DNA of 64,000 nucleotides, from assembly GCF_021134715.1 (NCBI RefSeq), contig NC_060026.1, positions 10,779,001 through 10,843,000 of the forward strand, read 5' to 3'. How positions within the stretch are numbered: the stretch's first letter is position 1; every line of letters begins with the position of its first letter. Positions 26,772 to 55,385 of this stretch are shown one piece after another. The translations under genes and the position numbers were made by a program. This stretch comes from Daphnia pulex. Its lineage: Eukaryota; Arthropoda; Branchiopoda; Diplostraca; Daphniidae. The notes under the pieces are model-generated. The model worked only from the letters and a program-made list of their open reading frames with translations, had not been told where the DNA came from and did not search any database.

Positions 26772-26856
26772 TGCTTTACTTCGACTTTTGTTACATTATT
26801 TGGTGTACTCACCAACCGGGCCAAGCATTCTGGCCCTTATATAAAAATGTCAATGT

Positions 26857-34790: not shown

Positions 34791-34862
34791 TGATCTCGAC
34801 GTGATTTGAACACGCAACCTCCTGATCTGGAGTCAAGCGCGCTACCGTTGTGCCACAAAATC
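34791..34862 (-). tRNA. tRNA-Trp-CCA: tRNA-Trp(CCA), weakened
   Basis: Three changes: U6 (wobble), A12 opposite C23 (D-stem mismatch, A box affected) and U28 (wobble). Confidence 0.78.
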
Positions 34863-35144
34863 TTGATTTTCGATGTTATTACTATCGTTATATTTTGGGA
34901 ACTACGGTGTCTTTTATAAAGGAATAGATTCTGATGGTAAGATTGATTATCACACGAACACATTTAGTCTTTTGAAAGAGTCAGTCAGATTAGTCAGGTT
35001 ATTTTTTTATATTTCCTTGGATCTTTTGATCGCCACAAGCCTTGATTTCCGTAATGAAAGCTAACAAGCTTAGGCATGATAGTCGGCTACAATAGATGGG
35101 TTGTCGTCGTGCAATTTGTATCAAGAAGTATACGTGAGGGACAA

Positions 35145-35215
35145 GCATCGATGGTTCAGTGGTAGAATGCTCGCCTGCCACGCGGGCGGCCCGGGATCGA
35201 TTCCCGGTCGATGCA
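35145..35215 (+). tRNA. tRNA-Gly-GCC: tRNA-Gly(GCC) lacking U54
   Basis: A replaces U54 (GGGATCGATT), altering the T-loop and B box; otherwise reference. Confidence 0.82.
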
Positions 35216-35783
35216 TTTTAATCACCATTGCCCAAGACAGATTGGTAGAATCTACTCTATTGAGTTTAGTTTGCTGATATTCTTGCGCAGTACGTATAAG
35301 GACGGTAGTTAGTGGTGGTTGAAGCAATCTCTTTAAGCGGACTCTTTTTTGTTTGCCAGATTGGTTTAGATTACTTAATCTTCCTTTGATCATACCAATT
35401 GGTGAATAAACCATTTGTAGGACAGTGAGGTACAAGTTATATCCATCGCCAGACTCTGTGTTTGTATCGTGGAAACCCAAGATAGTTATCAGTTCAAACT
35501 CGTCGTGTTCCAACTGCTGTGGTAATCGACATTCAGACGCAAATGTTCCCCCTTTTGTAAACTCACTTGGTTCTATGCTCTCCCATTCCAAAAACTGTAG
35601 TCCCGTGTAGATCTAAAGTCACATTTTGATATAAAGAAAAAATACAGCTGACTTAGATTCAAATTGAATCAGGATACATGTGTGTTGAGATAACAAGATA
35701 TAGAAACAATGGTGATTAATGTTATTTGAACGTTGAATCCGTTTTAAAAGCCTAAACATACCTTCACAAGAAATATTTTTGCT

Positions 35784-35855
35784 TGATCTCAACGTGATTT
35801 GAACCCGCAACCTCCTGATCTGGAGTCAGGCGCGCTACCGTTGCGCCACGAAATC
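35784..35855 (-). tRNA. tRNA-Trp-CCA: tRNA-Trp(CCA) variant
   Basis: Same G52 plus U66 combination as 8399, 27 kb away. Confidence 0.9.
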
Positions 35856-36137
35856 TTGATTTTTGATGTAATTACTATCGTTATATTTTGAAAACTACGG
35901 TGTCTTTTATAAAGGAATAGATTCTGATGGTAAGATTGATTATCACACGAACACATTTAGTCTTTTGAAAGAGTCAGTCAGATTAGTCAGGTTATGTTTT
36001 TATATTTCTTTGGATCTTTTGATCGCCACAAGCCTTGATTTCCGTAATGAAAGCTAACAAGCTTAGGCATGATAGTCGGCTACAATAGATGGGTTGTCGT
36101 CGCGCAATTTGTATCAAGAAGTATACGTGAGGGGCAA

Positions 36138-36208
36138 GCATCGATGGTTCAGTGGTAGAATGCTCGCCTGCCACACGGGCGGCCTGGGTTCGGTTCCCGG
36201 TCGATGCA
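36138..36208 (+). tRNA. tRNA-Gly-GCC: tRNA-Gly(GCC), probably inactive
   Basis: A39 (anticodon-stem mismatch), U50 (wobble) and G58 in place of invariant A58 (B box GGTTCGGTTCC). Confidence 0.72.
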
Positions 36209-36785
36209 TTTTAATCATCGTTGCCCAAGACAGATTTGTAGAATCTACTCTGTTGAGTTTAGTTTGCTGATATTCTTGCGCAGTACGTATAAGGACGGTA
36301 CTTAGTGGTTAGTGGTGGTTGAAGCAATCTCTTTAAGCGGACTCTTGTTTGTTTGCCAGATTGGTTTAGATTACTTAATCTTCCTTTGATCATACCAACT
36401 GGCGAATAAACCATTTGTAGGACAGAGAGGTACAAGTTATATCCATCGCCAGACTCTGTGTTTGTATCGTGGAAACCCAAGATAGTTATCGGTTCAAACT
36501 CGTCGTGTTCCAACTGCTGTGGTAATCGACATTCAGACGCAAATGTTCCCCCTTTTGTAAACTCACTTGGTTCTATGCTCTCCCATTCCAAAAACTGTAG
36601 TCCCGTGTAGATCTAAAGTCACATTTTGATAAAAAGAAAAAAAAAACAGCTGACTAAGATTCAAATTGAATTAGGATACATGTGTGTTGAGATAACAAGA
36701 TATAGAAACAATGGTGATTAATGTTATTTGAACGTTGTATCCGTTTTAAAAGCCTAAACATACCTTCACAAGAAATATTTTTGCT

Positions 36786-36857
36786 TGATCTCGACGTGAT
36801 TTGAACACACAACCTTCTGATCTGGAGTCAGGCGCGCTACCGTTGCGCCACGAAATC
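36786..36857 (-). tRNA. tRNA-Trp-CCA: tRNA-Trp(CCA) variant
   Basis: A43 opposite C27, and U50 in the T-stem. Confidence 0.85.
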
Positions 36858-37140
36858 TTGATTTTTATAAGTAATTACTATCGTTATATTTTGGGAACTA
36901 CGGTGTCTTTTATAAAGGAATAGATTCTGATGGTAAGATTGATTATCACACGAACACATTTAGTCTTCTGAAAGAGTCAGTCAGATTAGTCAGGTTATGT
37001 TTTTATATTTCTTTGGATCTTTTGATCGCCACAAGCCTTGATTTCCGTAATGAAAGCTTACAAGCTTAGGCATGATAGTCGGCTACAATAGATGGGTTGT
37101 TGTCGTGCAATTTGTATCAAGAAGTATACGTGAGGGGAAA

Positions 37141-37211
37141 GCATCGATGGTTCAGTGGTAGAATGCTCGCCTGCCACGCGGGCGGCCCGTGTTCGATTCC
37201 CGGTCGATGCA
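37141..37211 (+). tRNA. tRNA-Gly-GCC: tRNA-Gly(GCC), U52 variant
   Basis: U52 replaces G52 (CCGTG), a T-stem mismatch in the B box. Shared with 39142, offset 2,001 bp. Confidence 0.85.
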
Positions 37212-37786
37212 TTTTAATTACCATTGCCCAAGACAGATTGGTAGAATCTACTCAATTGAGTTTAGTTTGCTGATATTCTTGCGCAGTACGTATAAGGACG
37301 GTACTTAGTGGTTAGTGGTGGTTGAAGCAATCTCTTTAAGCGGACTCTTTTTTGTTTGCCAGATTGGTTTAGATTACTTAATCTTCCTTTGATCATACCA
37401 ATTGGCGAATAAACCATTTGTAGGACAGAGAGGTACAAGTTATATCCATCGCCAGACTCTGTGTTTGTATCGTGGAAACCCAAGATAGTTATCGGTTCAA
37501 ACTCGTCATGTTCCAACTGCTGTGGTAATCGACATTCAGACGCAAATGTTCCTTCTTTTGTAAACTCACTTGGTTCTATGCTCTCCCATTCCAAAAACTG
37601 TAGTCCCGTGTAGATCTAAAGTCACATTTTGATAAAAAGAAAAAAAGCAGCTGACTACAATTCAAATTGAATTAGGATACATGTGTGTTGAGATAACAAG
37701 ATATTGAACTAATGGTGATCAATGTTAATTGAATGTTGTATCTGTTCTATAAGCCCAAACATACCTTCACAAGAAATATTTTTGCT

Positions 37787-37858
37787 TGATCTCGACGTGA
37801 TTTGAACACGCAACCTCCTGATCTGGAGTCAGGCGCGCTACCGTTGCGCCACGAAATC
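37787..37858 (-). tRNA. tRNA-Trp-CCA: tRNA-Trp(CCA)
   Basis: Matches the reference; CTATAAG trailer type. Confidence 0.97.
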
Positions 37859-38140
37859 TTGATTTTCGATGTAATTACTATCGTTATATTTTGGGAACTA
37901 CGGTGTCTTTTATAAAGGAATAGATTCTGATGGTAAGATTGATTATCACACGAACACATTTAGTCTTTTGAAAGAGTCAGTCAGATTAGTCAGGTTATTT
38001 TTTTATATTTCTTTGGATCTTTTGATCGCCACAAGCCTTGATTTCCGTAATGAAAGCTAAGAAGCTTAGGCATGATAGTCGGCTACAATAGATGGGTTGT
38101 CGTCGTGCATTTTGTATCAAGAAGTATACGTGAGGGGCAA

Positions 38141-38211
38141 GCATCGATGGTTCAGTGGTAGAATGCTCGCCTGCCACGCGGATGGCCCGGGTTCGATTCC
38201 CGGTCGATGCA
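38141..38211 (+). tRNA. tRNA-Gly-GCC: tRNA-Gly(GCC) variant
   Basis: A43 opposite C27 and U44 (GCGGATGG). Confidence 0.87.
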
Positions 38212-38787
38212 TTTTAATCACCATTGCCCAAGACAGATTGGTAGAATCTACTCTATTGAGTTTAGTTTGCTGATATTCTTGCGCAGTACGTATAAGGACG
38301 GTACTTAGTGGTTAGTGGTGGTTGAAGCAATCTCTTTAAGCGGACTCTTTTTGTTTGCCAGATTGGTTTAGATTACTTAATCTTCCTTTGATCATACCAA
38401 TTGGTGAATAAACCATTTGTAGGACAGAGAGGTACAAATTATATCCATCGCCAGACTCTGTGTTTGTATCGTGGAAACCCAAGATAGTTATCGGTTCAAA
38501 CTCGTCGTGTTCCAACTGCTGTGGTAATCGACATTCAGACGCAAATGTTCCCCCCTTTGTAAACTCACTTGGTTCTATGCTCTCCCATTCCAAAAACTGT
38601 AGTCCCGTGTAGATCTAAAGTCACATTTTGATAAAAAGAAAAAAAAAACAGCTGGCTAAGATTCAAATTGAATTAGGATACATGTGTGTTGAGATAAAAA
38701 GATATAGAAATAATGGTGATTAATGTTATTTGAACGTTGAATCCGTTTTAAAAGCCTAAACATACCTTCACAAGAAATATTTTTGCT

Positions 38788-38859
38788 TGATCTCGACGTG
38801 ATTTGAACACGCAACCTCCTGATCTGGAGTCAGACGCGCTACCGTTGCGCCACGAAATC
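38788..38859 (-). tRNA. tRNA-Trp-CCA: tRNA-Trp(CCA)
   Basis: U27 leaves a U27-G43 wobble; otherwise reference. Confidence 0.94.
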
Positions 38860-39141
38860 TTGATTTTCGATGTAATTACTATCGTTATATTTTGGGAACT
38901 ACGGTGTCTTTTATAAAGGAATAGATTCTGATGGTAAGATTGATTATCACACGAACACATTTAGTCTTTTGAAAGAGTCAGTCAGATTAGTCAGGTTATG
39001 TTTTTATATTTCTTTGGATCTTTTGATCGCCACAAGCCTTGATTTCCGTAATGAAAGCTTACAAGCTTAGGCATGATAGTCGGCTACAATAGATGGGTTG
39101 TCGTCGTGCAATTTGTATCAAGAAGTATACGTGAGGGGAAA

Positions 39142-39212
39142 GCATCGATGGTTCAGTGGTAGAATGCTCGCCTGCCACGCGGGCGGCCCGTGTTCGATTC
39201 CCGGTCGATGCA
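39142..39212 (+). tRNA. tRNA-Gly-GCC: tRNA-Gly(GCC), U52 variant
   Basis: Same change as 37141. Confidence 0.85.
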
Positions 39213-39787
39213 TTTTAATCACCATTGCCCAAGACAGATTGGTAGAATCTACTTTATTGAGTTTAGTTTGCTGATATTCTTGCGCAGTACGTATAAGGAC
39301 GGTACTTAGTGGTTAGTGGTGGTTGAAGCAATCTCTTTAAGCGGACTCTTTTTTGTTTGCCAGATTGGTTTAGATTACTTAATCTTCCTTTGATCATACC
39401 AATTGGCGAATAAACCATTTGTAGGACAGAGAGGTACAAGTTATATCCATCGCCAGACTCTGTGTTTGTATCGTGGAAACCCAAGATAGTTATCGGTTCA
39501 AACTCGTCGTGTTCCAACTGCTGTGGTAATCGACATTCAGACGCAAATGTTCCTTCTTTTGTAAACTCACTTGGTTCTATGCTCTCCCATTCCAAAAACT
39601 GTAGTCCCGTGTAGATCTAAAGTCACATTTTGATAAAAAGAAAAAAAGCAGCTGACTACAATTCAAATTGAATTAGGATACATGTGTGTTGAGATAACAA
39701 GATATTGAACTAATGGTGATTAACGTTAATTGAATGTTGTATCTGTTCTATAAGCCCAAACATACCTTCACAAGAAATATTTTTGCT

Positions 39788-39859
39788 TGATCTCGACGTG
39801 ATTTGAACACGCAACCTCCTGATCTGGAGTCAGGCGCGCTACCGTTGCGCCACGAAATC
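39788..39859 (-). tRNA. tRNA-Trp-CCA: tRNA-Trp(CCA)
   Basis: Matches the reference. It is the duplicate partner (4,994 bp away) of the CUA-anticodon copy at 44782 and shows the ancestral CCA. Confidence 0.97.
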
Positions 39860-40141
39860 TTGATTTTCGATGTAATTACTATCGTTATATTTTGGGAACT
39901 ACGGTGTCTTTTATAAAGGAATAGATTCTGATGGTAAGATTGATTATCACACGAACACATTTAGTCTTTTGAAAGAGTCAGTCAGATTAGTCAGGTTATT
40001 TTTTTATATTTCTTTGGATCTTTTGATCGCCACAAGCCTTGATTTCCGTAATGAAAGCTAAGAAGCTTAGGCATGATAGTCGGCTACAATAGATGGGTTG
40101 TCGTCGTGCATTTTGTATCAAGAAGTATACGTGAGGGGCAA

Positions 40142-40212
40142 GCATCGATGGTTCAGTGGTAGAATGCTCGCCTGCCACGCGGGTGGCCCGGGTTCGATTC
40201 CCGGTCGATGCA
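40142..40212 (+). tRNA. tRNA-Gly-GCC: tRNA-Gly(GCC)
   Basis: U44 in the variable loop; otherwise reference. Confidence 0.96.
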
Positions 40213-40787
40213 TTTTAATCACCATTGCCCAAGACAGATTGGTAGAATCTACTCTATTGAGTTTAGTTTGCTGATATTCTTGCGCAGTACGTATAAGGAC
40301 GGTACTTAGTGGTTAGTGGTGGTTGAAGCAATCTCTTTAAGCGGACTCTTTTTGTTTGCCAGATTGGTTTAGATTACTTAATCTTCCTTTGATCATACCA
40401 ATTGGTGAATAAACCATTTGTAGGACAGAGAGGTACAAATTATATCCATCGCCAGACTCTGTGTTTGTATCGTGGAAACCCAAGATAGTTATCGGTTCAA
40501 ACTCGTCGTGTTCCAACTGCTGTGGTAATCGACATTCAGACGCAAATGTTCCCCCCTTTGTAAACTCACTTGGTTCTATGCTCTCCCATTCCAAAAACTG
40601 TAGTCCCGTGTAGATCTAAAGTCACATTTTGATAAAAAGAAAAAAAAACAGCTGGCTAAGATTCAAATTGAATTAGGATACATGTGTGTTGAGATAAAAA
40701 GATATAGAAACAATGGTGATTAATGTTATTTGAACGTTGAATCCGTTTTAAAAGCCTAAACATACCTTCACAAGAAATATTTTTGCT

Positions 40788-40859
40788 TGATCTCGACGTG
40801 ATTTGAACACGCAACCACCTGATCTGGAGTCTGGCGCACTACCGTTGCGCCACGAAATC
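40788..40859 (-). tRNA. tRNA-Trp-CCA: tRNA-Trp(CCA) with anticodon-stem mismatch
   Basis: A29 opposite A41, U23 (D-stem wobble) and U44. Same haplotype at 45782. Confidence 0.83.
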
Positions 40860-41141
40860 TTGATTTTCAATGTAATTACTATCGTTATATTTTGGGAACT
40901 ACGGTGTCTTTTATAAAGGAATAGATTCTGATGGTAAGATTGATTATCACACGAACACATTTAGTCTTTTGAAAGAGTCAGTCAGATTAGTCAGGTTATT
41001 TTTTTATATTTCTTTGGATCTTTTGATCGCCACAAGCCTTGATTTCCGTAATGAAAGCTAAGAAGCTTAGGCATGATAGTCGGCTACAATAGATGGGTTG
41101 TCGTCGTGCATTCTGTATCAAGAAGTATACGTGAGGGGCAA

Positions 41142-41212
41142 GCATCGATGGTTCAGTGGTAGAATGCTCGCCTGCCACGCGGGCGGCCCGGGTTCGATTC
41201 CCGGTCGATGCA
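41142..41212 (+). tRNA. tRNA-Gly-GCC: tRNA-Gly(GCC)
   Basis: Matches the reference, with TTTT. Confidence 0.98.
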
Positions 41213-41787
41213 TTTTAATCACCATTGCCCAAGACAGATTGGTAGAATCTACTCTATTGAGTTTAGTTTGCTGATATTCTTGCGCAGTACGTATAAGGAC
41301 GGTACTTAGTGGTTAGTGGTGGTTGAAGCAATCTCTTTAAGCGGACTCTTTTTGTTTGCCAGATTGGTTTAGATTACTTAATCTTCCTTTGATCATACCA
41401 ATTGGTGAATAAACCATTTGTAGGACAGAGAGGTACAAATTATATCCATCGCCAGACTCTGTGTTTGTATCGTGGAAACCCAAGATAGTTATCGGTTCAA
41501 ACTCGTCGTGTTCCAACTGCTGTGGTAATCGACATTCAGACGCAAATGTTCCCCCCTTTGTAAACTCACTTGGTTCTATGCTCTCCCATTCCAAAAACTG
41601 TAGTCCCGTGTAGATCTAAAGTCACATTTTGATAAAAAGAAAAAAAAACAGCTGGCTAAGATTCAAATTGAATTAGGATACATGTGTGTTGAGATAAAAA
41701 GATATAGAAACAATGGTGATTAATGTTATTTGAACGTTGAATCCGTTTTAAAAGCCTAAACATACCTTCACAAGAAATATTTTTGCT

Positions 41788-41859
41788 TGATCCCGACGTG
41801 ATTTGAACACGCAACCTCCTGATCTGGAGTCTGGCGCACTACCGTTGCGCCAAGAAATC
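41788..41859 (-). tRNA. tRNA-Trp-CCA: tRNA-Trp(CCA), weakened
   Basis: U7 opposite C66, G68 (wobble), U23 and A29 opposite A41. Confidence 0.75.
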
Positions 41860-42141
41860 TTGATTTTCAATGTTATTACTATCGTTATATTTTGGGAACT
41901 ACGGTGTCTTTTATAAAGGAATAGATTCTGATGGTAAGATTGATTATCACACGAACACATTTAGTCTTTTGAAAGAGTCAGTCAGATTAGTCAGGTTATT
42001 TTTTTATATTTCTTTGGATCTTTTGATCGCCACAAGCCTTGATTTCCGTAATGAAAGCTAAGAAGCTTAGGCATGATAGTCGGCTACAATAGATGGGTTG
42101 TCGTCGTGCATTTTGTATCAAGAAGTATACGTGAGGGGCAA

Positions 42142-42212
42142 GCATCGATGGTTCAGTGGTAGAATGCTCGCCTGCCACGCGGGCGGCCCGGGTTCGATTC
42201 CCGGTCGATGCA
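42142..42212 (+). tRNA. tRNA-Gly-GCC: tRNA-Gly(GCC)
   Basis: Matches the reference, with TTTT. Confidence 0.98.
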
Positions 42213-42779
42213 TTTTAATCACCATTGCCCAAGACAGATTGGTAGAATCTACTCTATTGAGTTTAGTTTGCTGATATTCTTGCGCAGTACGTATAAGGAC
42301 GGTACTTAGTGGTTAGTGGTGGTTGAAGCAATCTCTTTAAGCGGACTCTTTTTGTTTGCCAGATTGGTTTAGATTACTTAATCTTCCTTTGATCATACCA
42401 ATTGGTGAATAAACCATTTGTAGGACAGAGAGGTACAAATTATATCCATCGCCAGACTCTGTGTTTGTATCTTGGAAACCCAAGATAGTTATCGGTTGAA
42501 ACTCGTCGTGTTCCAACTGCTGTGGTAATCGACATTCAGACGCAAATGTTCCCCCTTTTGTAAACTCACTTGGTTCTATGCTCTCCCATTCCAAAAACTG
42601 TAGTCCCGTGTAGATCTAAAGTCACATTTTGATAAAAAGAAAAAAAAACAGCTGACTAAGATTCAAATTGAATTAGGATACATGTGTGTTGAGATAAAAA
42701 GATATAGAAACAATGGTGATTAATGTTATTTGATCCGTTTTAAAAGCCTAAACATACCTTCACAAGAAATATTTTTGCT

Positions 42780-42851
42780 TGATCTCGACGTGATTTGAAC
42801 ACGCAACCTCCTGATCTGGAGTCTGGCGCACTACCGTTGAGCCACGAAATC
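42780..42851 (-). tRNA. tRNA-Trp-CCA: tRNA-Trp(CCA), weakened
   Basis: U12 opposite U23 (D-stem mismatch, A box GGCTCAACGG) and A29 opposite A41. Same haplotype at 46774 and 51774. Confidence 0.78.
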
Positions 42852-43133
42852 TTGATTTTCGATGTAATTACTATCGTTATATTTTGGGAACTACGGTGTC
42901 TTTTATAAAGGAATAGATTCTGATGGTAAGATTGATTATCACACGAACACATTTAGTCTTTTGAAAGAGTCAGTCAGATTAGTCAGGTTATTTTTTTATA
43001 TTTCCTTGGATCTTTTGATCGCCACAAGCCTTGATTTCCGTAATGAAAGCTAACAAGCTTAGGCATGATAGTCGGCTACAATAGATGGGTTGTCGTCGTG
43101 CAATTTGTATCAAGAAGTATACGTGAGGGGCAA

Positions 43134-43204
43134 GCATCGATGGTTCAGTGGTAGAATGCTCGCCTGCCACGCGGGCGGCCCGGGTTCGATTCCCGGTCGA
43201 TGCA
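43134..43204 (+). tRNA. tRNA-Gly-GCC: tRNA-Gly(GCC)
   Basis: Matches the reference, with TTTT. Confidence 0.98.
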
Positions 43205-43781
43205 TTTTAATCACCACTGCCCAAGACAGATTGGTAGAATCTACTCTATTGAGTTTAGTTTGCTGATATTCTTGCGCAGTACGTATAAGGACGGTACTTA
43301 GTGGTTAGTGGTGGTTGAAGCAATCTCTTTAAGCGGACTCTTTTTTGTTTGCCAGATTGGTTTAGATTACTTAATCTTCCTTTGATCATACCAATTTGCG
43401 AATAAACCATTTGTAGGACAGAGAGGTACAAGTTATATCCATCGCCAGACTCTGTGTTTGTATCGTGGAAACCCAAGATAGTTATCGGTTCAAACTCGTC
43501 GTGTTCCAACTGCTGTGGTAATCGACATTCAGACGCAAATGTTCCCCCTTTTGTAAACTCACTTGGTTCTATGCTCTCCCATTCCAAAAACTGTAGTCCC
43601 GTGTAGATCTAAAGTCACATTTTGATAAAAAGAAAAAAAAGCAGCTGACTACAATTCAAATTGAATTAGGATACATGTGTGTTGAGATAACAAGATATTG
43701 AACCAATGGTGATTAATGTTATTTGAACGTTGTATCTGTTCTATAAGCCCAAACATACCTTCACAAAAAATTTTTTTTGAT

Positions 43782-43853
43782 TGATCTCGACGTGATTTGA
43801 ACACGCAACCTCCTGATCTGGAGTCAGGCGCTCTACCGTTGCGCCACGAAATC
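43782..43853 (-). tRNA. tRNA-Trp-CCA: tRNA-Trp(CCA) with new proximal terminator
   Basis: A23 opposite G12 in the D-stem. A minus-strand T6 (43765-43770) lies 12 bases past the gene, and the 5' part of the trailer is altered (GATTGATC on the plus strand). Confidence 0.83.
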
Positions 43854-44135
43854 TTGATTTTCAATGTAATTACTATCGGTATATTTTGGGAACTACGGTG
43901 TCTTTTATAAAGGAATAGATTCTGATGGTAAGATTGATTATCACACGAACACATTTAGTCTTTTGAAAGAGTCAGTCAGATTAGTCAGGTTATTTTTTTA
44001 TATTTCTTTGGATCTTTTGATCGCCACAAGCCTTGATTTCCGTAATGAAAGCTAACAAGCTTAGGCATGATAGTCGGCTACAATAGATGGGTTGTCGTCG
44101 TGCAATTTGTATCAAGAAGTATACGTGAGGGGCAA

Positions 44136-44206
44136 GCATCGATGGTTCAGTGGTAGAATGCTCGCCTGCCACGTGGGCGGCCTGGGTTCGATTCCCGGTC
44201 GATGCA
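44136..44206 (+). tRNA. tRNA-Gly-GCC: tRNA-Gly(GCC)
   Basis: U40 and U50, both leaving wobble pairs. Confidence 0.93.
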
Positions 44207-44781
44207 TTTTAATCACCATTGCCCAAGACAGATTGGTAGAATCTACTCTATTGAGTTTAGTTTGCTGATATTCTTGCGCAGTACGTATAAGGACGGTACT
44301 TAGTGGTTAGTGGTGGTTGAAGCAATCTCTTTAAGCGGACTCTTTTTTGTTTGCCAGATTGGTTTAGATTACTTAATCTTCCTTTGATCATACCAATTGG
44401 CGAATAAACCATTTGTAGGACAGAGAGGTACAAGTTATATCCATCGCCAGACTCTGTGTTTGTATCGTGGAAACCCAAGATAGTTATCGGTTCAAACTCG
44501 TCGTGTTCCAACTGCTGTGGTAATCGACATTCAGACGCAAATGTTCCTTCTTTTGTAAACTCACTTGGTTCTATGCTCTCCCATTCCAAAAACTGTAGTC
44601 CCGTGTAGATCTAAAGTCACATTTTGATAAAAAGAAAAAAAGCAGCTGACTACAATTCAAATTGAATTAGGATACATGTGTGTTGAGATAACAAGATATT
44701 GAACTAATGGTGATTAACGTTAATTGAATGTTGTATCTGTTCTATAAGCCCAAACATACCTTCACAAGAAATATTTTTGCT

Positions 44782-44853
44782 TGATCTCGACGTGATTTGA
44801 ACACGCAACCTCCTGATCTAGAGTCAGGCGCGCTACCGTTGCGCCACGAAATC
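44782..44853 (-). tRNA. tRNA-Trp body with CUA anticodon: predicted amber (UAG) suppressor
   Basis: One base differs from the reference Trp: C35 is U, so loop CTCCAGA becomes CTCTAGA and the anticodon becomes CUA, complementary to the UAG stop codon. Every stem, the A and B boxes, A73 and the upstream TATAA are intact. The trailer is the CTATAAG type that lacks the nearby T4. The identical CCA-to-CUA change made the C. elegans sup-5/sup-7 and E. coli Su7 suppressors, so function is plausible if the gene is expressed. Its duplicate partner at 39788 has CCA, so the change is recent. A sequencing or assembly error is the main alternative. Confidence 0.93.
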
Positions 44854-45135
44854 TTGATTTTCGATGTAATTACTATCGTTATATTTTGGGAACTACGGTG
44901 TCTTTTATAAAGGAATAGATTCTGATGGTAAGATTGATTATCACACGAACACATTTAGTCTTTTGAAAGAGTCAGTCAGATTAGTCAGGTTATTTTTTTA
45001 TATTTCTTTGGATCTTTTGATCGCCACAAGCCTTGATTTCCGTAATGAAAGCTAAGAAGCTTAGGCATGATAGTCGGCTACAATAGATGGGTTGTCGTCG
45101 TGCATTTTGTATCAAGAAGTATACGTGAGGGGCAA

Positions 45136-45206
45136 GCATCGATGGTTCAGTGGTAGAATGCTCGCCTGCCACGCGGGTGGCCCGGGTTCGATTCCCGGTC
45201 GATGCA
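45136..45206 (+). tRNA. tRNA-Gly-GCC: tRNA-Gly(GCC)
   Basis: U44 variant like its partner at 40142. Confidence 0.96.
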
Positions 45207-45781
45207 TTTTAATCACCATTGCCCAAGACAGATTGGTAGAATCTACTCTATTGAGTTTAGTTTGCTGATATTCTTGCGCAGTACGTATAAGGACGGTACT
45301 TAGTGGTTAGTGGTGGTTGAAGCAATCTCTTTAAGCGGACTCTTTTTGTTTGCCAGATTGGTTTAGATTACTTAATCTTCCTTTGATCATACCAATTGGT
45401 GAATAAACCATTTGTAGGACAGAGAGGTACAAATTATATCCATCGCCAGACTCTGTGTTTGTATCGTGGAAACCCAAGATAGTTATCGGTTCAAACTCGT
45501 CGTGTTCCAACTGCTGTGGTAATCGACATTCAGACGCAAATGTTCCCCCCTTTGTAAACTCACTTGGTTCTATGCTCTCCCATTCCAAAAACTGTAGTCC
45601 CGTGTAGATCTAAAGTCACATTTTGATAAAAAGAAAAAAAAACAGCTGGCTAAGATTCAAATTGAATTAGGATACATGTGTGTTGAGATAAAAAGATATA
45701 GAAACAATGGTGATTAATGTTATTTGAACGTTGAATCCGTTTTAAAAGCCTAAACATACCTTCACAAGAAATATTTTTGCT

Positions 45782-45853
45782 TGATCTCGACGTGATTTGA
45801 ACACGCAACCACCTGATCTGGAGTCTGGCGCACTACCGTTGCGCCACGAAATC
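45782..45853 (-). tRNA. tRNA-Trp-CCA: tRNA-Trp(CCA) with anticodon-stem mismatch
   Basis: Same A29, U23, U44 haplotype as 40788, offset 4,994 bp. Confidence 0.83.
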
Positions 45854-46135
45854 TTGATTTTCAATGTAATTACTATCGTTATATTTTGGGAACTACGGTG
45901 TCTTTTATAAAGGAATAGATTCTGATGGTAAGATTGATTATCACACGAACACATTTAGTCTTTTGAAAGAGTCAGTCAGATTAGTCAGGTTATTTTTTTA
46001 TATTTCTTTGGATCTTTTGATCGCCACAAGCCTTGATTTCCGTAATGAAAGCTAAGAAGCTTAGGCATGATAGTCGGCTACAATAGATGGGTTGTCGTCG
46101 TGCATTTTGTATCAAGAAGTATACGTGAGGGGCAA

Positions 46136-46206
46136 GCATCGATGGTTCATTGGTAGAATGCTCGCCTGCCACGCGGGCGGCCCGGGTTCGATTCCCGGTC
46201 GATGCA
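46136..46206 (+). tRNA. tRNA-Gly-GCC: tRNA-Gly(GCC) with D-loop change
   Basis: U replaces G15 (GTTCATTGG), altering the Levitt pair position and the A box; otherwise reference. Confidence 0.88.
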
Positions 46207-46773
46207 TTTTAATCACCATTGCCCAAGACAGATTGGTAGAATCTACTCTATTGAGTTTAGTTTGCTGATATTCTTGCGCAGTACGTATAAGGACGGTACT
46301 TAGTGGTTAGTGGTGGTTGAAGCAATCTCTTTAAGCGGACTCTTTTTGTTTGCCAGATTGGTTTAGATTACTTAATCTTCCTTTGATCATACCAATTGGT
46401 GAATAAACCATTTGTAGGACAGAGAGGTACAAATTATATCCATCGCCAGACTCTGTGTTTGTATCGTGGAAACCCAAGATAGTTATCGGTTGAAACTCGT
46501 CGTGTTCCAACTGCTGTGGTAATCGACATTCAGACGCAAATGTTCCCCCTTTTGTAAACTCACTTGGTTCTATGCTCTCCCATTCCAAAAACTGTAGTCC
46601 CGTGTAGATCTAAAGTCACATTTTGATAAAAAGAAAAAAAAACAGCTGACTAAGATTCAAATTGAATTAGGATACATGTGTGTTGAGATAAAAAGATATA
46701 GAAACAATGGTGATTAATGTTATTTGATCCGTTTTAAAAGCCTAAACATACCTTCACAAGAAATATTTTTGCT

Positions 46774-46845
46774 TGATCTCGACGTGATTTGAACACGCAA
46801 CCTCCTGATCTGGAGTCTGGCGCACTACCGTTGAGCCACGAAATC
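46774..46845 (-). tRNA. tRNA-Trp-CCA: tRNA-Trp(CCA), weakened
   Basis: Same haplotype as 42780, offset 3,994 bp. Confidence 0.78.
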
Positions 46846-47127
46846 TTGATTTTCGATGTAATTACTATCGTTATATTTTGGGAACTACGGTGTCTTTTAT
46901 AAAGGAATAGATTCTGATGGTAAGATTGATTATCACACGAACACATTTAGTCTTTTGAAAGAGTCAGTCAGATTAGTCAGGTTATTTTTTTATATTTCCT
47001 TGGATCTTTTGATCGCCACAAGCCTTGATTTCCGTAATGAAAGCTAACAAGCTTAGGCATGATAGTCGGCTACAATAGATGGGTTGTCGTCGTGCAATTT
47101 GTATCAAGAAGTATACGTGAGGGGCAA

Positions 47128-47198
47128 GCATCGATGGTTCAGTGGTAGAATGCTCGCCTGCCACGCGGGCGGCCCGGGTTCGATTCCCGGTCGATGCA
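47128..47198 (+). tRNA. tRNA-Gly-GCC: tRNA-Gly(GCC)
   Basis: Matches the reference, with TTTT. Confidence 0.98.
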
Positions 47199-47774
47199 TT
47201 TTAATCACCACTGCCCAAGACAGATTGGTAGAATCTACTCTATTGAGTTTAGTTTGCTGATATTCTTGCGCAGTACGTATAAGGACGGTACTTAGTGGTT
47301 AGTGGTGGTTGAAGCAATCTCTTTAAGCGGACTCTTTTTTGTTTGCCAGATTGGTTTAGATTACTTAATCTTCCTTTGATCATACCAATTTGCGAATAAA
47401 CCATTTGTAGGACAGAGAGGTACAAGTTATATCCATCGCCAGACTCTGTGTTTGTATCGTGGAAACCCAAGATAGTTATCGGTTCAAACTCGTCGTGTTC
47501 CAACTGCTGTGGTAATCGACATTCAGACGCAAATGTTCCCCCTTTTGTAAACTCACTTGGTTCTATGCTCTCCCATTCCAAAAACTGTAGTCCCGTGTAG
47601 ATCTAAAGTCACATTTTGATAAAAAGAAAAAAAAGCAGCTGACTACAATTCAAATTGAATTAGGATACATGTGTGTTGAGATAACAAGATATTGAACCAA
47701 TGGTGATTAATGTTATTTGAACGTTGTATCTGTTCTATAAGCCCAAACATACCTTCACAAAAAATATTTTTGCT

Positions 47775-47846
47775 TGATCTCGACGTGATTTGAACACGCA
47801 ACCTTCTGATCTGGAGTCAGGCGCTCTACCGTTGCGCCACGAAATC
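47775..47846 (-). tRNA. tRNA-Trp-CCA: tRNA-Trp(CCA) with proximal T6
   Basis: A23 opposite G12 and A43 opposite C27. A T6 (47759-47764) lies 11 bases past the gene. Confidence 0.8.
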
Positions 47847-48128
47847 TTGATTTTCAATGTAATTACTATCGGTATATTTTGGGAACTACGGTGTCTTTTA
47901 TAAAGGAATAGATTCTGATGGTAAGATTGATTATCACACGAACACATTTAGTCTTTTGAAAGAGTCAGTCAGATTAGTCAGGTTATTTTTTTATATTTCT
48001 TTGGATCTTTTGATCGCCACAAGCCTTGATTTCCGTAATGAAAGCTAACAAGCTTAGGCATGATAGTCGGCTACAATAGATGGGTTGTCGTCGTGCAATT
48101 TGTATCAAGAAGTATACGTGAGGGGCAA

Positions 48129-48199
48129 GCATCGATGGTTCAGTGGTAGAATGCTCGCCTGCCACGCGGGCGGCCTGGGTTCGATTCCCGGTCGATGCA
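48129..48199 (+). tRNA. tRNA-Gly-GCC: tRNA-Gly(GCC)
   Basis: U50 wobble in the T-stem; otherwise reference. Confidence 0.95.
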
Positions 48200-48775
48200 T
48201 TTTAATCACCATTGCCCAAGACAGATTGGTAGAATCTACTCTATTGAGTTTAGTTTGCTGATATTCTTGCGCAGTACGTATAAGGACGGTACTTAGTGGT
48301 TAGTGGTGGTTGAAGCAATCTCTTTAAGCGGACTCTTTTTTGTTTGCCAGATTGGTTTAGATTACTTAATCTTCCTTTGATCATACCAATTGGCGAATAA
48401 ACCATTTGTAGGACAGAGAGGTACAAGTTATATCCATCGCCAGACTCTGTGTTTGTATCGTGGAAACCCAAGATAGTTATCGGTTCAAACTCGTCGTGTT
48501 CCAACTGCTGTGGTAATCGACATTCAGACGCAAATGTTCCCCCTTTTGTAAACTCACTTGGTTCTATGCTCTCCCACTCCAAAAACTGTAGTCCCGTGTA
48601 GATCTAAAGTCACATTTTGATAAAAAGAAAAAAAAGCAGCTGACTACAATTCAAATTGAATTAGGATACATGTGTGTTGAGATAACAAGATATTGAACCA
48701 ATGGTGATTAATGTTATTTGAACGTTGTATCTGTTCTATAAGCCCAAACATACCTTCACAAGAAATATTTTTGCT

Positions 48776-48847
48776 TGATCTCGACGTGATTTGAACACAC
48801 AACCTCCTTATCTGGAGTCAGGCGCGCTACCGTTGCGCCACGAAATC
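48776..48847 (-). tRNA. tRNA-Trp-CCA: tRNA-Trp(CCA) with anticodon-stem mismatch
   Basis: A40 opposite G30, and U50 in the T-stem. Confidence 0.82.
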
Positions 48848-49130
48848 TTGATTTTTATATGTAATTACTATCGTTATATTTTGGGAACTACGGTGTCTTT
48901 TATAAAGGAATAGATTCTGATGGTAAGATTGATTATCACACGAACACATTTAGTCTTTTGAAAGAGTCAGTCACATTAGTCAGGTTATTTTTTTATATTT
49001 GCTTGGATCTTTTGATCGCCACAAGCCTTGATTTCCGTAATGAAAGCTAACAAGCTTAGGCATGATAGTCGGCTACAATAGATGGGTTGTCGTCGTGCAA
49101 TTTGTATCAAGAAGTATACGTGAAGGGCAA

Positions 49131-49201
49131 GCATCGATGGTTCAGTGGTAGAATGCTCGCCTGCCACGCGGGCGGCCCGGGTTCGATTCCCGGTCGATGC
49201 A
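49131..49201 (+). tRNA. tRNA-Gly-GCC: tRNA-Gly(GCC)
   Basis: Matches the reference, with TTTT. Confidence 0.98.
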
Positions 49202-49777
49202 TTTTAATCACCATTGCCCAAGACAGATTGGTAGAATCTACTCTATTGAGTTTAGTTTGCTGATATTCTTGCGCAGTACGTATAAGGACGGTACTTAGTG
49301 GTTAGTGGTGGTTGAAGCAATCTCTTTAAGCGGACTCTTTTTTGTTTGCCAGATTGGTTTAGATTACTTAATCTTCCTTTGATCATACCAATTTGCGAAT
49401 AAACCATTTGTAGGACAGATAGGTACAAGTTATATCCATCGCCGGACTCTGTGTTTGTATCGTGGAAACCCAAGATAGTTATCGGTTCAAACTCGTCGTG
49501 TTCCAACTGCTGTGGTAATCGACATTCAGACGCAAATGTTCCCCCTTTTGTAAACTCACTTGGTTCTATGCTCTCCCATTCCAAAAACTGTAGTCCCGTG
49601 TAGATCTAAAGTCACATTTTGATAAAAAGAAAAAAAAACAGCTGACTAAGATTCAAATTGAATTAGGATACATGTGTGTTGAGATAACAAGATATAGAAA
49701 CAATGGTGATTAATGTTATTTGAACGTTGTATCCGTTTTAAAGGCCTAAACATACCTTCAAAAGAATTATTTTTGCT

Positions 49778-49849
49778 TGATCTCGACGTGATTTGAACAC
49801 GCAACCTCCTGATCTGGAGTCTGGCGCGCTACCGTTGCGCCACGAAATC
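49778..49849 (-). tRNA. tRNA-Trp-CCA: tRNA-Trp(CCA) variant
   Basis: A29 opposite A41 only. Confidence 0.88.
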
Positions 49850-50131
49850 TTGATTTTCAATGTAATTACTATCGTTATATTTTGGGAACTACGGTGTCTT
49901 TTATAAAGGAATAGATTCTGATGGTAAGATTGATTATCACACGAACACATTTAGTCTTTTGAAAGAGTCAGTCAGATTAGTCAGGTTATTTTTTTATATT
50001 TCGTTGGATCTTTTGATCGCCACAAGCCTTGATTTCCGTAATGAAAGCTAACAAGCTTAGGCATGATAGTCGGCTACAATAGATGGGTTGTCGTCGTGCA
50101 ATTTGTATCAAGAAGTATACGTGAGGGGCAA

Positions 50132-50202
50132 GCATCGATGGTTCAGTGGTAGAATGCTCGCCTGCCACGCGGGCGGCCCGGGTTCGATTCCCGGTCGATG
50201 CA
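50132..50202 (+). tRNA. tRNA-Gly-GCC: tRNA-Gly(GCC)
   Basis: Matches the reference, with TTTT. Confidence 0.98.
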
Positions 50203-50779
50203 TTTTAATCACCATTGCTCAAGACAGATAGGTAGAATCTACTCTATTGAGTTTAGTTTGCTGATATTCTTGCGCAGTACGTATAAGGACGGTACTTAGT
50301 GGTTAGTGGTGGTTGAAGCAATCTCTTTAAGCGGACTCTTTTTGTTTGCCAGATTGGTTTAGATTACTTAATCTTCCTTTGATCATACCAATTGGCGAAT
50401 AAACCATTTGTAGGACAGAGAGGTACAAGTTATATCCATCGCCAGACTCTGTGTTTGTATCGTGGAAACCCAAGATAGTTATCGGTTCAAACTCGTCGTG
50501 TTCCAACTGCTGTGGTAATCGACATTCAGACGCAAATGTTCCCCCTTTTGTAAACTCACTTGGTTCTATGCTCTCCCATTCCAAAAACTGTAGTCCCGTG
50601 TAGATCTAAAGTCACATTTTGATAAAAAGAAAAAAAAAAACAGCTGACTAAGATTCAAATTGAATTAGGATACATGTGTGTTGAGATAACAAGATATAGA
50701 AACAATGGTGATTAATGTTATTTGAACGTTGTGTCCGTTTTAAAAGCCTAAACATACCTTCACAAAAAATATTTTTGCT

Positions 50780-50851
50780 TGATCTCGACGTGATTTGAAC
50801 ACGCAACCTCCTGATCTGGAGTCAGGCGCGCTACCGTTGCGCCACGGAAAC
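50780..50851 (-). tRNA. tRNA-Trp-CCA: tRNA-Trp(CCA), weakened
   Basis: U2 and C5 give two acceptor mismatches (GTTTCCG). A T6 (50764-50769) lies just downstream. Confidence 0.76.
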
Positions 50852-51134
50852 TTGATTTTTTTATGTAATTACTATCGATATATTTTGGGAACTACGGTGT
50901 CTTTTATAAAGGAAAAGATTCTGATGGTAAGATTGATTATCACACGAACACATTTAGTCTTTTGAAAGAGTCAGTCAGATTAGTCAGGTTATTTTTTTAT
51001 ATTTCTTTTGATCTTTTGATCGCCACAAGCCTTGATTTCCGTAATGAAAGCTAACAAGCTTAGGCATGATAGTCGGCTACAATAGATGGGTTGTCGTTGT
51101 GCAATTTGTATCAAGAAGCATACATAAGGGCCAA

Positions 51135-51205
51135 GCATCGATGGTTCAGTGGTAGAATGCTCGCCTGCCCCGCGGGCGGCCCGGGTTCGATTCCCGGTCG
51201 ATGCA
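51135..51205 (+). tRNA. tRNA-Gly-GCC: tRNA-Gly(GCC) with C37
   Basis: Loop CTGCCCC: the purine 3' of the anticodon (A37) is C. Otherwise reference. Confidence 0.87.
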
Positions 51206-51773
51206 TTTTAATCACAATTGCCCAAGACAGATTGGTAGAATCTACTCTATTGAGTTTAGTTTGCTGATATTCTTGCGCAGTACGTATAAGGACGGTACTT
51301 AGTGGTTAGTGGTGGTTGAAGCAATCTCTTTAAGCGGACTCTTTTTTGTTTGCCAGATTGGTTTAGATTAGTTAATCTTCCTTTGATCATACCAATTGGC
51401 GAATAAACCATTTGTAGGACAGAGAGGTACAAGTTATATCCATCGCCAGACTCTGTGTTTGTATCGTGGAAACCCAAGATAGTTATCGGTTGAAACTCGT
51501 CGTGTTCCAACTGCTGTGGTAATCGACATTCAGACGCAAATGTTCCCCCTTTTGTAAACTCACTTGGTTCTATGCTCTCCCATTCCAAAAACTGTAGTCC
51601 CGTGTAGATCTAAAGTCACATTTTGATAAAAAGAAAAAAAAGCAGCTGACTAAGATTCAAATTGAATTAGGATACATGTGTGTTGAGATAAAAAGATATA
51701 GAAACAATGGTGATTAATGTTATTTGATCCGTTTTTAAAGCCTAAACATACCTTCACAAGAAATATTTTTGCT

Positions 51774-51845
51774 TGATCTCGACGTGATTTGAACACGCAA
51801 CCTCCTGATCTGGAGTCTGGCGCACTACCGTTGAGCCACGAAATC
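51774..51845 (-). tRNA. tRNA-Trp-CCA: tRNA-Trp(CCA), weakened
   Basis: Same U12, U23, A29 haplotype as 42780. Confidence 0.78.
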
Positions 51846-52127
51846 TTGATTTTCGATGTAATTACTATCGTTATATTTTGGGAACTACGGTGTCTTTTAT
51901 AAAGGAATAGATTCTGATGGTAAGATTGATTATCACACGAACACATTTAGTCTTTTGAAAGAGTCAGTCAGATTAGTCAGGTTATTTTTTTATATTTCCT
52001 TGGATCTTTTGATCGCCACAAGCCTTGATTTCCGTAATGAAAGCTAATAAGCTTAGGCATGATAGTCGGCTACAATAGATGGGTTGTCGTCGTGCAATTT
52101 GTATCAAGAAGTATACGTGAGGGGCAA

Positions 52128-52198
52128 GTATCGATGGTTCAGTGGTAGAATGCTCGCCTGCTACGCGGGCGGCCCGGGTTCGATTCCCGGTCGATGCA
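52128..52198 (+). tRNA. tRNA-Gly body with GCU (Ser) anticodon
   Basis: Loop CTGCTAC gives anticodon GCU (AGC/AGU codons) instead of GCC. U2 leaves a U-G wobble. Everything else, including TTTT, is intact. SerRS recognises the long variable arm, absent here, so serine charging is unlikely. Residual charging by GlyRS would place Gly at Ser codons; loss of C36 may instead prevent charging. Confidence 0.92.
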
Positions 52199-52645
52199 TT
52201 TTAATCACCATTGCTCAAGACAGATTGGTAGAATCTACTCTATTGAGTTTAGTTTGCTGATATTCTTGCGCAGTACGTATAAGGACGGTACTTAGTGGTT
52301 AGTGGTGGTTGAAGCAATCTCTTTAAGCGGACTCTTTTTTGTTTGCCAGATTGGTTTAGATTACTTAATCTTCCTTTGATCATACCAATTGGCGAATAAA
52401 CCATTTGTAGGACAGAGAGGTACAAGTTATATCCATCGCGAGACTCTGTGTTTGTATCGTGGAAACCCAAGATAGTTATCGGTTCAAACTCGTCGTGTTC
52501 CAACTGCTGTGGTAATCGACATTCAGACGCAAATGTTCCCCCTTTTGTAAACTCATTTGGTTCTATGCTCTCCCATTCCAAAAACTGTAGTCCCGTGTAG
52601 ATCTAAAGTCACATTTTGATAAAAAGAAAAAAAAGCAGCTGACTA

Positions 52646-53496
52646 GGGGAGACCGGGGCTATGTGGGACACGGGGCTAAAATGTACAGGGCAATTTTAAT
52701 ATGTACAATTTGTCTAAAAATGATGAAATAAATAAAGCGTATGTTAAATGATGTTTTATTTATCTTATAAACTTTTTTTCTTGAAATTATGATGAATTGG
52801 TCGAGTTTTATGAGAAAAACAAAAAAATGGGAATCGGAAAAAAAAATTCTGACGTTTTATTTTTCATTTTCGTAATACTTTTTTTTATTTTTTTATAAAA
52901 CCCATACAGCTGTTTTATAGGGTTTTCTTTCTAGTTTGAGATAATAATAATATTTTATAAAAAATGTTTTCCTAAGTATGTTATAATTTAGTTTATTTCA
53001 TGTTGTTTGGGTTCGGGTTAAACGGGACATGGAAAACGGGGTAAAACAGGTATTGCTAGATCAACGTTTTTTCCAGAAAAACGCCCCCTGGCAACAAAAA
53101 CAAAGGAAAAATGACCGAAAAAACTTTTTTGATAATATCTCCACTGCTACTTTATAAAATAAATAAAAATATAGCACTTCTGAAAGGGAAATGAATTTCC
53201 TGTTCACCAGTGCATTATTTATTAAATATCGTTAAGCCGTTGCAGAGAAAAATGATGTTCCATTTAACGCCTGGCTCTGTTCCGTTTAACCCTAAATTTT
53301 TTGTTTTTCGGCATTTTTTCATGTTGGCATTTCATCACATAACTATTAAATGATTCAACGAAAAAAATTAAAAAAATTACCAAATGTAAATAAATGCTAG
53401 GGAATCACCCCTATACTTTTATTTTTTTATAATTCTTATTTTTATTTAAATGGAAGCATAAAGAAAAAAAATGTCCCACATAGCCCCGGTCTCCCC
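52646..53496. mobile_element. 851-bp non-autonomous DNA transposon (MITE-like), TA target site
   Basis: Perfect 25-bp terminal inverted repeats start GGGGAGACCGGGG and are flanked by TA on both sides (52644-52645 and 53497-53498). The empty site GACTACAATTC is present in other units. Subterminal motifs resembling the ends recur inside (GGGTTAAACGGGACA at 53014; an inverted relative at 53256-53292). No transposase frame is present. The TA duplication suggests the Tc1/mariner group, but the ends alone do not prove the superfamily. Perfect ends and a clean duplication suggest recent insertion. Confidence 0.88.
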
Positions 53497-53627
53497 TACA
53501 ATTCAAATTGAATTAGGATACATGTGTGTTGAGATAACAAGATATTGAACCAATGGTGATTAATGTTATTTGAACGTTGTATCTGTTCTATAAGCCCAAA
53601 CATACCTTCACAAAAAATATTTTTGCT

Positions 53628-53699
53628 TGATCTCGACGTGATTTGAACACGCAACCTCCTGATCTGGAGTCAGGCGCGCTGACGTTGCGCCACGAAATC
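53628..53699 (-). tRNA. tRNA-Trp-CCA: tRNA-Trp(CCA) with D-loop change
   Basis: D-loop AACGTCA: G19 is U and U20 is C, damaging the A box and the G19-C56 contact. A T6 (53612-53617) lies just downstream. First Trp after the transposon. Confidence 0.78.
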
Positions 53700-53981
53700 T
53701 TGATTTTCGATGTAATTACTATCGGTATATTTTGGGAACTACGGTGTCTTTTATAAAGGAATAGATTCTGATGGTAAGATTGATTATCACACGAACACAT
53801 TTAGTCTTTTGAAAGAGTCAGTCAGATTAGTCAGGTTATTTTTTTATATTTCTTTGGATCTTTTGATCGCCACAAGCCTTGATTTCCGTAATGAAAGCTA
53901 ACAAGCTTAGGCATGATAGTCGGCTACAATAGATGGGTTGTCGTCGTGCAATTTGTATCAAGAAGTATACGTGAGGGGCAA

Positions 53982-54052
53982 GCATCGATGGTTCAGTGGT
54001 AGAATGCTCGCCTGCCACGCGGGCGGCCTGGGTTCGATTCCCGGTCGATGCA
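53982..54052 (+). tRNA. tRNA-Gly-GCC: tRNA-Gly(GCC)
   Basis: U50 wobble; otherwise reference. Confidence 0.95.
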
Positions 54053-54627
54053 TTTTAATCACCATTGCCCAAGACAGATTGGTAGAATCTACTCTATTGA
54101 GTTTAGTTTGCTGATATTCTTGCGCAGTACGTATAAGGACGGTACTTAGTGGTTAGTGGTGGTTGAAGCAATCTCTTTAAGCGGACTCTTTTTTGTTTGC
54201 CAGATTGGTTTAGATTAGTTAATCTTCCTTTGATCATACCAATTGGCGAATAAACCATTTGTAGGACAGATAGGTACAAGTTATATCCATCGCCAGACTC
54301 TGCGTTTGTATCGTGGAAACCCAAGATAGTTATCGGTTCAAACTCGTCGTGTTCCAACTGCTGTGGTAATCTACATTCAGACGCAAATGTTCCCCCTTTT
54401 GTAAACTCACTTGGTTCTATGCTCTCCCATTCCAAAAACTGTAGTCCCGTGTAGATCTAAAGTCACATTTTTATAAAAAGAAAAAAAGCAGCTGACTACA
54501 ATTCAAATTGAATTAGGATACATGTGTGTTGAGATAACAAGATATAGAAACAATGGTGATTAATGTTATTTGAACGTTGTATCCGTTTTAAAAGCCTAAA
54601 CATACCTTCACAAGAAATATTTTTGCT

Positions 54628-54699
54628 TGATCTCGACGTGATTTGAACACGCAACCTCCTGATCTGGAGTCAGGCGCGCTACCGTTGCGCCACGAAATC
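54628..54699 (-). tRNA. tRNA-Trp-CCA: tRNA-Trp(CCA)
   Basis: Matches the reference. Its unit is truncated immediately upstream at 54.77 kb, but the TATAA is kept. Confidence 0.96.
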
Positions 54700-54778
54700 T
54701 TGATTTTCGATGTAATTACTATCGTTATATTTTGGGAACTACGGTGTCTTTTATAAAGGAATAGATTCTGATGTCCCA

Positions 54779-54809
54779 GGCGGCCCGGGTTCGATTCCCG
54801 GTTGATGCA
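54779..54809 (+). pseudogene. 3' fragment of tRNA-Gly
   Basis: Only the last 31 bases (variable loop, T-arm, 3' acceptor strand) remain, after a ~243-bp deletion joining the shared upstream region to the middle of the gene. One further change lies in the acceptor strand (GTTGATGC). Confidence 0.9.
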
Positions 54810-55385
54810 TTTTAATCATCATTGCCCAAGACAGATTTGTAGAATCTACTCTATTGAGTTTAGTTTGCTGATATTCTTGCGCAGTACGTATAAGGACGGT
54901 ACTTAGTGGTTAGTGGTGGTTGAAGCAATCTCTTTAAGCGGACTCTTTTTTGTTTGCCAGATTGGTTTAGATTACTTAATCTTCCTTTGATCATACCAAT
55001 TGGTGAATTAACCATTTGTAGGACAGAGAGGTACAAATTATATCCATCGCCAGACTCTGTGTTTGTATCGTGGAAACCCAAGATAGTTATCGGTTCAAAC
55101 TCGTCGTGTTCCAACTGCTGTGGTAATCGACATTCAGACGCAAATGTTCCCCCTTTTGTAAACTCACTTGGTTCTATGCTCTCCCATTCCAAATACTGTA
55201 GTCCCGTGTAGATCTAAAGTCACATTTTGATAAAAAGAAAAAAAAAGAGCTGGCTAAGATTCAAATTGAATTAGGATACATGTGTGTTGAGATAAAAAGA
55301 TATAGAAACAATGGTGATTAATGTTATTTGAACGTTGAATCCGTTTTAAAAGCCTAAACATACCTTCACAAGAAATATTTTTGCT

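Follow-up and report, generated by a model that had tools for sequence, protein, structure and literature searches.

A tRNA-Trp copy with a CUA anticodon in a large Trp/Gly tandem array of Daphnia pulex: a predicted amber suppressor that is ordinary as a mutation

The window analysed here, a stretch of 64,000 nucleotides of Daphnia pulex DNA (contig NC_060026.1), contains a tandem array of tRNA genes (Table 1) that is still continuing at the right end of the window. ARAGORN called 110 tRNA genes in the window, 55 on each strand. Each unit carries a divergent pair in which a tRNA-Trp gene (anticodon CCA) on the minus strand is followed about 280 bases on by a tRNA-Gly gene (anticodon GCC) on the plus strand. 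Among the 54 steps between consecutive genes of the 55 tRNA-Trp genes, 51 measure 990-1002 bases and the other three are irregular (2390, 1854 and 758 bases). Tandem Repeats Finder (periods up to 500, score of at least 50) found no short tandem repeats in the spacers of the array, all seven of its rows ending at or before position 4,082, outside the array. The unit alignment comprised 52 of the 55 units, three being left out as too long; unit pairs were compared, and one count of variable sites was made, with 50 of the 52 aligned units, while the tests of private bases, mutation density and variation used 46 of these 52 (46 of all 55). For counts of mutations in stems and anticodons, only copies of modal length were used, which are 52 of the 55 for each tRNA.

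Table 1. Features of the tRNA array and of the unit with the CUA-bearing copy (window coordinates).
Feature	Position	Strand	Basis
Tandem array of ~1-kb units, with one tRNA-Trp (minus strand) and one tRNA-Gly (plus strand) per unit	6664..64000	.	ARAGORN, unit alignment
72-nt gene body of the tRNA-Trp that bears the CUA anticodon; no intron called	44782..44853	-	ARAGORN, Rfam RF00005, copy table
CUA anticodon; the changed base is 44820	44819..44821	-	unit comparison
Internal Pol III A box (TGGCGCAACGGT), identical in the CCA sister	44835..44846	-	pattern match
Internal Pol III B box (TGTTCAAATCA), identical in the CCA sister	44793..44803	-	pattern match
5' flank containing TATA-like stretches; same sequence as the 39788 flank	44854..44913	-	role inferred
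Predicted 3' trailer, up to the first stretch of at least four T	44642..44781	-	T-run search; termination is a prediction
Sister tRNA-Trp with normal CCA anticodon	39788..39859	-	2 differences in 1000 aligned unit positions
Zones of denser change, in the same places in other units	e.g. ~44642-44913 and 45076-45206		~3x rest of unit

In Entamoeba, tRNA arrays are likewise built of tandem units that each hold one tRNA gene or several (PMC2652664); these are described as mostly uniform, with short repeats in their spacers and no clear pseudogenes. The Daphnia array is like these in that each tandem unit carries tRNA genes, but it differs in that no spacer repeats were found and many of its tRNA copies are damaged. 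In its large size it also resembles the tRNA clusters of fifty and more that PMC2888827 gives for Nematostella and teleosts. A search of open-licence papers for Daphnia tRNA arrays returned mostly organelle genomes among the matches listed, and nothing there on such an array. An exact spacer 28-mer had no match in viral contigs, and a tRNA-Trp pattern matched neither viral contigs nor bacterial and archaeal genome contigs.

The first-pass annotation had singled out one tRNA-Trp gene as the only one of 55 to carry a CUA anticodon in a gene that is otherwise intact, and both halves of this claim held. ARAGORN reads the anticodon CTA in one of the 55 minus-strand genes (44782-44853) and CCA in the other 54, in agreement with the copy table. 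The plus-strand base 44820 is A in this unit and G in the other 45 of the 46 units compared, and a 13-mer with the CUA loop occurs a single time within the 64-kb window. Compared with the commonest Trp sequence, which is shared by 19 of the 55 copies, the sole difference is C35U (position 34 of the gene, position 35 in tRNA numbering), and the score of 67.7 bits against Rfam RF00005 is the highest of the 110 tRNA matches. The same score led us to reject the reading of this copy as a structural pseudogene. We likewise rejected a pyrrolysine tRNA, since the ARAGORN label 'tRNA-Pyl' reflects the anticodon only and the body is that of a tRNA-Trp bar one base.

In the folding model the cloverleaf has an energy of -23.3 for both the CUA copy and its CCA sister, such that the predicted RNA of the former would be able to adopt the same cloverleaf as the latter. 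In both cases, the bare RNA is predicted to be most stable in another fold than the cloverleaf (-23.8 for the CUA copy, -26.0 for the sister), and modified tRNAs in cells often depart from bare-RNA fold predictions. The A and B boxes of the CUA copy match consensus patterns, of which that for the A box fits 46 and that for the B box 49 of the 52 Trp copies. The 5' flank of the CUA copy is identical to that of the sister over all 599 nt compared. With its whole structure and its sister-like boxes and 5' flank, the CUA copy is not a visible pseudogene.

The 3' side varies among the copies. In both the CUA copy and its CCA sister, the closest stretch of at least four T starts 140 bases past the gene; among the 55 Trp copies, the first such run lies 20-59 bases past the gene in 31, nearer in 8 and more than 120 bases away in 14. 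With this run farther off than in most copies, processing of the CUA copy may be poorer, and interrupted T runs may serve as terminators. In four Trp genes (43782, 47775, 50780 and 53628), the sequence 10-11 bases past the gene is TTTTTT instead of the TTTCTT of most other copies; judged by its letters, a canonical Pol III terminator is predicted in some Trp copies and is interrupted in most.

To place the CUA copy among its relatives, we compared its unit with the 51 other aligned units and found the 39788 unit to be the nearest, followed by the 37787 unit with six differences and one gap column. Among 46 units, each of the two sister units has one private base (44248 for 39788 and 44820 for 44782), and a self-comparison of the window at an offset of 4994 gives 44820 as the only mismatch from 44249 to 46106. 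The adjoining units also pair, and do so in matching order (40788 and 41788 with 45782, 42780 with 46774, 43782 with 47775), so that a block of several units was duplicated, and the CUA anticodon arose once the 44782 unit had split from the 39788 unit. The first-pass annotation had derived the CUA copy from the CCA copy at 39788 by a recent duplication; this fits the data, which show the two as sisters within a block of several units and are compatible with either copy as the template.

That the change is private to one unit, in sister stretches that are otherwise identical from 44249 to 46106, is also what an error of base calling, polishing or assembly at 44820 would produce, in which case the true anticodon would be CCA. 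Tandem arrays are hard to polish, which favours an error to some degree. However, private bases are common in the array (104 singletons over 46 units), two further anticodon changes are seen in it, and a high error rate is incompatible with kilobase units that are identical to each other (58371/60372 and 12402/17394). These points apply to the array as a whole and are not specific to base 44820; on balance we consider an error improbable. Of the two pairs named, units 12402 and 17394 differ by no substitution and two gap columns. Units 58371 and 60372, between which lies one further unit, differ by neither a substitution nor a gap column, and the units that follow them (59371 and 61372) are five substitutions apart; the pair is a very recent two-unit duplication or conversion.

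We then asked whether the CUA change exceeds what chance would yield, placing the distinct changes observed in the tRNA copies at random with the same base spectrum. Of the 29 distinct changes in the 52 modal-length Trp copies, 12 disrupt a stem pair versus 10.6 expected (probability of as few or fewer breaks 0.82); the 52 Gly copies hold 27, with 13 stem-breaking changes versus 12.1 expected (0.73). Anticodons are no exception, with three changes in total versus 2.95 expected (Trp, 1 versus 1.65; Gly, 2 versus 1.30). At least one stem position is mispaired in 25 of the 52 Trp copies and in 12 of the 52 Gly copies, in addition to which there are three off-length copies of each. The Trp consensus has 18 C sites, 8 of which carry a C>T allele (7 of 17 without the CUA one), and since C>T at either C of CCA yields an anticodon for a stop codon, drift would be expected to produce about 0.8-0.9 stop-type Trp anticodons if all C sites are alike, versus the one seen. 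Hence, selection on single tRNA copies leaves no visible sign in the array, and as a kind of mutation the CUA change is not more than chance.

This result bears on the idea of a selected element, in which the CUA copy is retained since reading through UAG, or giving that codon another meaning, benefits the organism. Beyond a whole-looking gene, nothing speaks for such a selected element; the change sits in one of 55 copies, split recently from its sister, and stop-type anticodons are not above the drift expectation. We regard this explanation as very improbable, and a programmed or selected suppressor was rejected as the main reading on the basis that anticodon changes match the random expectation. 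The framing of the first-pass annotation, in which a suppressor allele lies hidden in a large array, is weakened for a related reason, as anticodon changes are no rarer or commoner than at random and nearly half of the Trp copies (25 of 52) have a mispaired stem position. With so many damaged copies and anticodons changing at random, the CUA copy requires no special explanation.

Two of the Gly genes bear the other anticodon changes. The plus-strand copies at 18748-18818 and 52128-52198 are tRNA-Gly bodies in which anticodon base 36 is changed, giving GCA (Cys type) and GCU (Ser type), respectively. Charging with glycine would make them misread codons for Cys and Ser, and their status is the same as that of the CUA copy.

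Changes are not spread evenly along the unit. Over 46 units, the Trp gene has 0.375 distinct changes per site, the 140 bases on its 3' side 0.343 and the 60 bases on its 5' side 0.350; the Gly gene has 0.338 and the 60 bases on its 5' side 0.350, versus 0.121 in the rest of the unit. The 3' side of Gly is raised less, with 10 changes over 48 sites of the unit's first 50 bases. Taken together, the zone of genes and flanks has 0.351 events per site versus 0.121 elsewhere, an approximately threefold difference between zones that were partly drawn after looking. Variable sites are about as frequent in gene bodies (45/143) as in the flanks of 60 bases on either side (67/245; p=0.42, 46 units), and with 50 units they number 26/72 in Trp, 24/71 in Gly and 161/857 elsewhere. 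Fisher tests of the density (p from 1e-4 to 1e-12) take neighbouring sites as independent and so overstate the excess. In circular shifts, the fraction reaching the observed value was 0.09 for events and 0.13 for singletons with the two genes alone (not significant), 0.059 and 0.157 with the Trp trailer added, 0.051 with flanks of 60 bases on either side, and 0.005 only for the zone chosen after looking.

An excess of this kind around tRNA genes fits transcription-associated mutagenesis, and if that is its cause, the array would be transcribed in the germline. In Thornlow et al. 2018, as cited in PMC8113476, flanks of tRNA genes are said to mutate fast and bodies to be strongly conserved by purifying selection; bodies that vary like flanks, as they do here, are a prediction of redundancy within the array.

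PMC9976931 gives C34, C35 and A36 as the Trp anticodon identity bases in Eukarya, with C35 a major one, and describes a plant tRNA-Trp with a CUA anticodon that is mischarged by LysRS. Of the determinants listed in that paper, the CUA copy has lost C35 and retained A73 and G1-C72; its 5-68 pair is U-A, as in the array consensus, which is neither of the forms listed there. With C35 lost, the tRNA may be a poor substrate for Trp charging and may receive a different amino acid.

The change itself has counterparts selected in the laboratory. According to PMC4999229, the C. elegans genes sup-5, sup-7, sup-21, sup-24, sup-28, sup-29, sup-33 and sup-34 are tRNA-Trp amber suppressors that arose by CCA to CUA in eight of ten identical Trp genes, from a Trp family of 12 genes, and animals that carry such a suppressor show proper development and fertility, though they are somewhat sick. 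That the CUA copy shares its anticodon change with C. elegans suppressors had been proposed in the first-pass annotation, and PMC4999229 bears this out. In both cases the tRNA-Trp has gone from CCA to CUA with its fold and internal promoter kept. In contrast, the worm genes came out of suppressor screens, read UAG in vivo and belong to a small family, whereas the Daphnia copy is known from sequence alone and belongs to a tandem array with 55 or more Trp genes. E. coli Su7 is a tRNA-Trp amber suppressor with the same C35U change and is charged largely with glutamine. It differs from the CUA copy in being a bacterial tRNA, and the Trp identity sets of bacteria and eukaryotes differ outside the anticodon (PMC9976931).

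Against this background, the CUA copy might be a working but weak amber suppressor that is transcribed, charged with Trp or another amino acid and outnumbered by normal copies, such that it reads a small share of UAG codons. The precedent of the eight worm genes (PMC4999229), the top Rfam score, the A and B boxes, and the 5' flank identical to that of the sister all argue in its favour. On the other hand, the copy lacks C35, an identity base of tRNA-Trp (PMC9976931), and its first run of four T is distant, although this is also the case for other copies of the array; moreover, the copy matches the drift prediction. Nor is expression of such a gene always harmless, as PMC4999229 reports that a sup-7 transgene lacking its host promoter was lethal in worms. 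Weighing both sides, we regard a working suppressor as unlikely, though it carries real weight; weak and diluted UAG suppression by the CUA copy is possible, as far as its letters allow one to predict. Dilution by normal copies, which the first-pass annotation offered as the reason for tolerance, is plausible: one gene among at least 55 would account for little of the Trp tRNA pool, provided that the copies are equally active.

We favour as the probable explanation that the CUA copy is a near-neutral mutant tRNA-Trp without effect in a large tandem Gly/Trp array. According to this explanation, tRNA genes and most of their flanks gather roughly three times more distinct changes per site than the rest of the unit, presumably through transcription-associated mutagenesis, and copies spread by duplication of blocks of several units, as the paired neighbours indicate. 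A C-to-T change, placed by the sister comparison after the split from the 39788 unit, turned one anticodon to CUA. Any RNA made from it would come from one of at least 55 Trp genes and lack a major Trp identity base, which would leave little or no UAG readthrough and no role. Points that tell against this explanation are the whole structure of the copy, its retained A73 and G1-C72, the activity of worm suppressors with the same change, an array that would be transcribed if transcription causes the mutation excess, and the dependence of that excess on the zone tested. The finding is present as sequence and ordinary as a mutation, and it belongs to the class of predicted amber-suppressor tRNAs. 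The degrees of confidence expressed for these explanations are judgements and were not computed.

Annotation programs report predicted suppressor tRNAs in many genomes. Among 331,242 nuclear tRNA genes of plants there are 1,325 (PMC9126412), while blue catfish has 10 (PMC9270728), guppy one and medaka two (PMC5982815), and three flatworm genomes have possible ones (PMC2770079); Gambusia (PMC5982815) and song sparrow (PMC7144075) have none. Like these annotated 'suppressor tRNA' genes, the CUA copy has a stop-type anticodon in an otherwise tRNA-like gene; unlike them, it can be set beside a normal sister copy from which a single changed base separates its anticodon. A search of the open-licence literature (titles and starts of abstracts) returned no natural germline Trp amber suppressor in an animal, nor this array, among the matches listed, which says little.

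The array suggests that drift should be the default reading of predicted suppressor or mis-sense tRNAs in large arrays. Even if the CUA copy is silent, the array offers a clean case of tRNA gene bodies varying like their flanks, and the greater interest lies in how the array leaves its individual tRNA genes without visible constraint, as this copy exemplifies. If expressed, the copy would be the natural equivalent of suppressors obtained in the laboratory and would directly test what level of UAG readthrough an organism tolerates. A bolder proposal, which we consider decidedly unlikely, is that the CUA copy is a natural germline amber suppressor in an animal, transcribed, charged and tolerated by dilution, and that together with the Cys- and Ser-type copies with Gly bodies it is one of several altered-anticodon tRNAs from a mutation-prone, unconstrained array, which would amount to standing variation in the reading of the code.

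Several further observations concern the array itself. A minus-strand open frame of about 117 codons lies in the spacer (e.g. 44257-44610) and is seen again in many units; no Pfam match at E up to 1 was obtained for the three ORFs tested of 52, which included one such frame, and the recurrence is probably a by-product of unit similarity. Three related units (30140-30858, 31141-31859 and 33143-33861) have damaged genes, with Gly copies of 70 nt whose anticodon calls are ambiguous and Trp copies of 73 nt that are altered after the anticodon stem. About 1.4 kb of non-array DNA lies within a unit at 26326-27740, where it replaces unit positions 493-517; it includes a tRNA-like stretch near 26855-26925 with a B-box-like motif, GGTTCGAATC, identified by eye, and is perhaps a SINE. 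A second insertion, AT-rich and about 0.85 kb long, occupies 52646-53495 in another unit, and the unit matches that flank it overlap by three unit positions. At the junction 54774-54778, the 758-base unit lacks unit positions 707-954, and part of its tRNA-Gly gene is gone.
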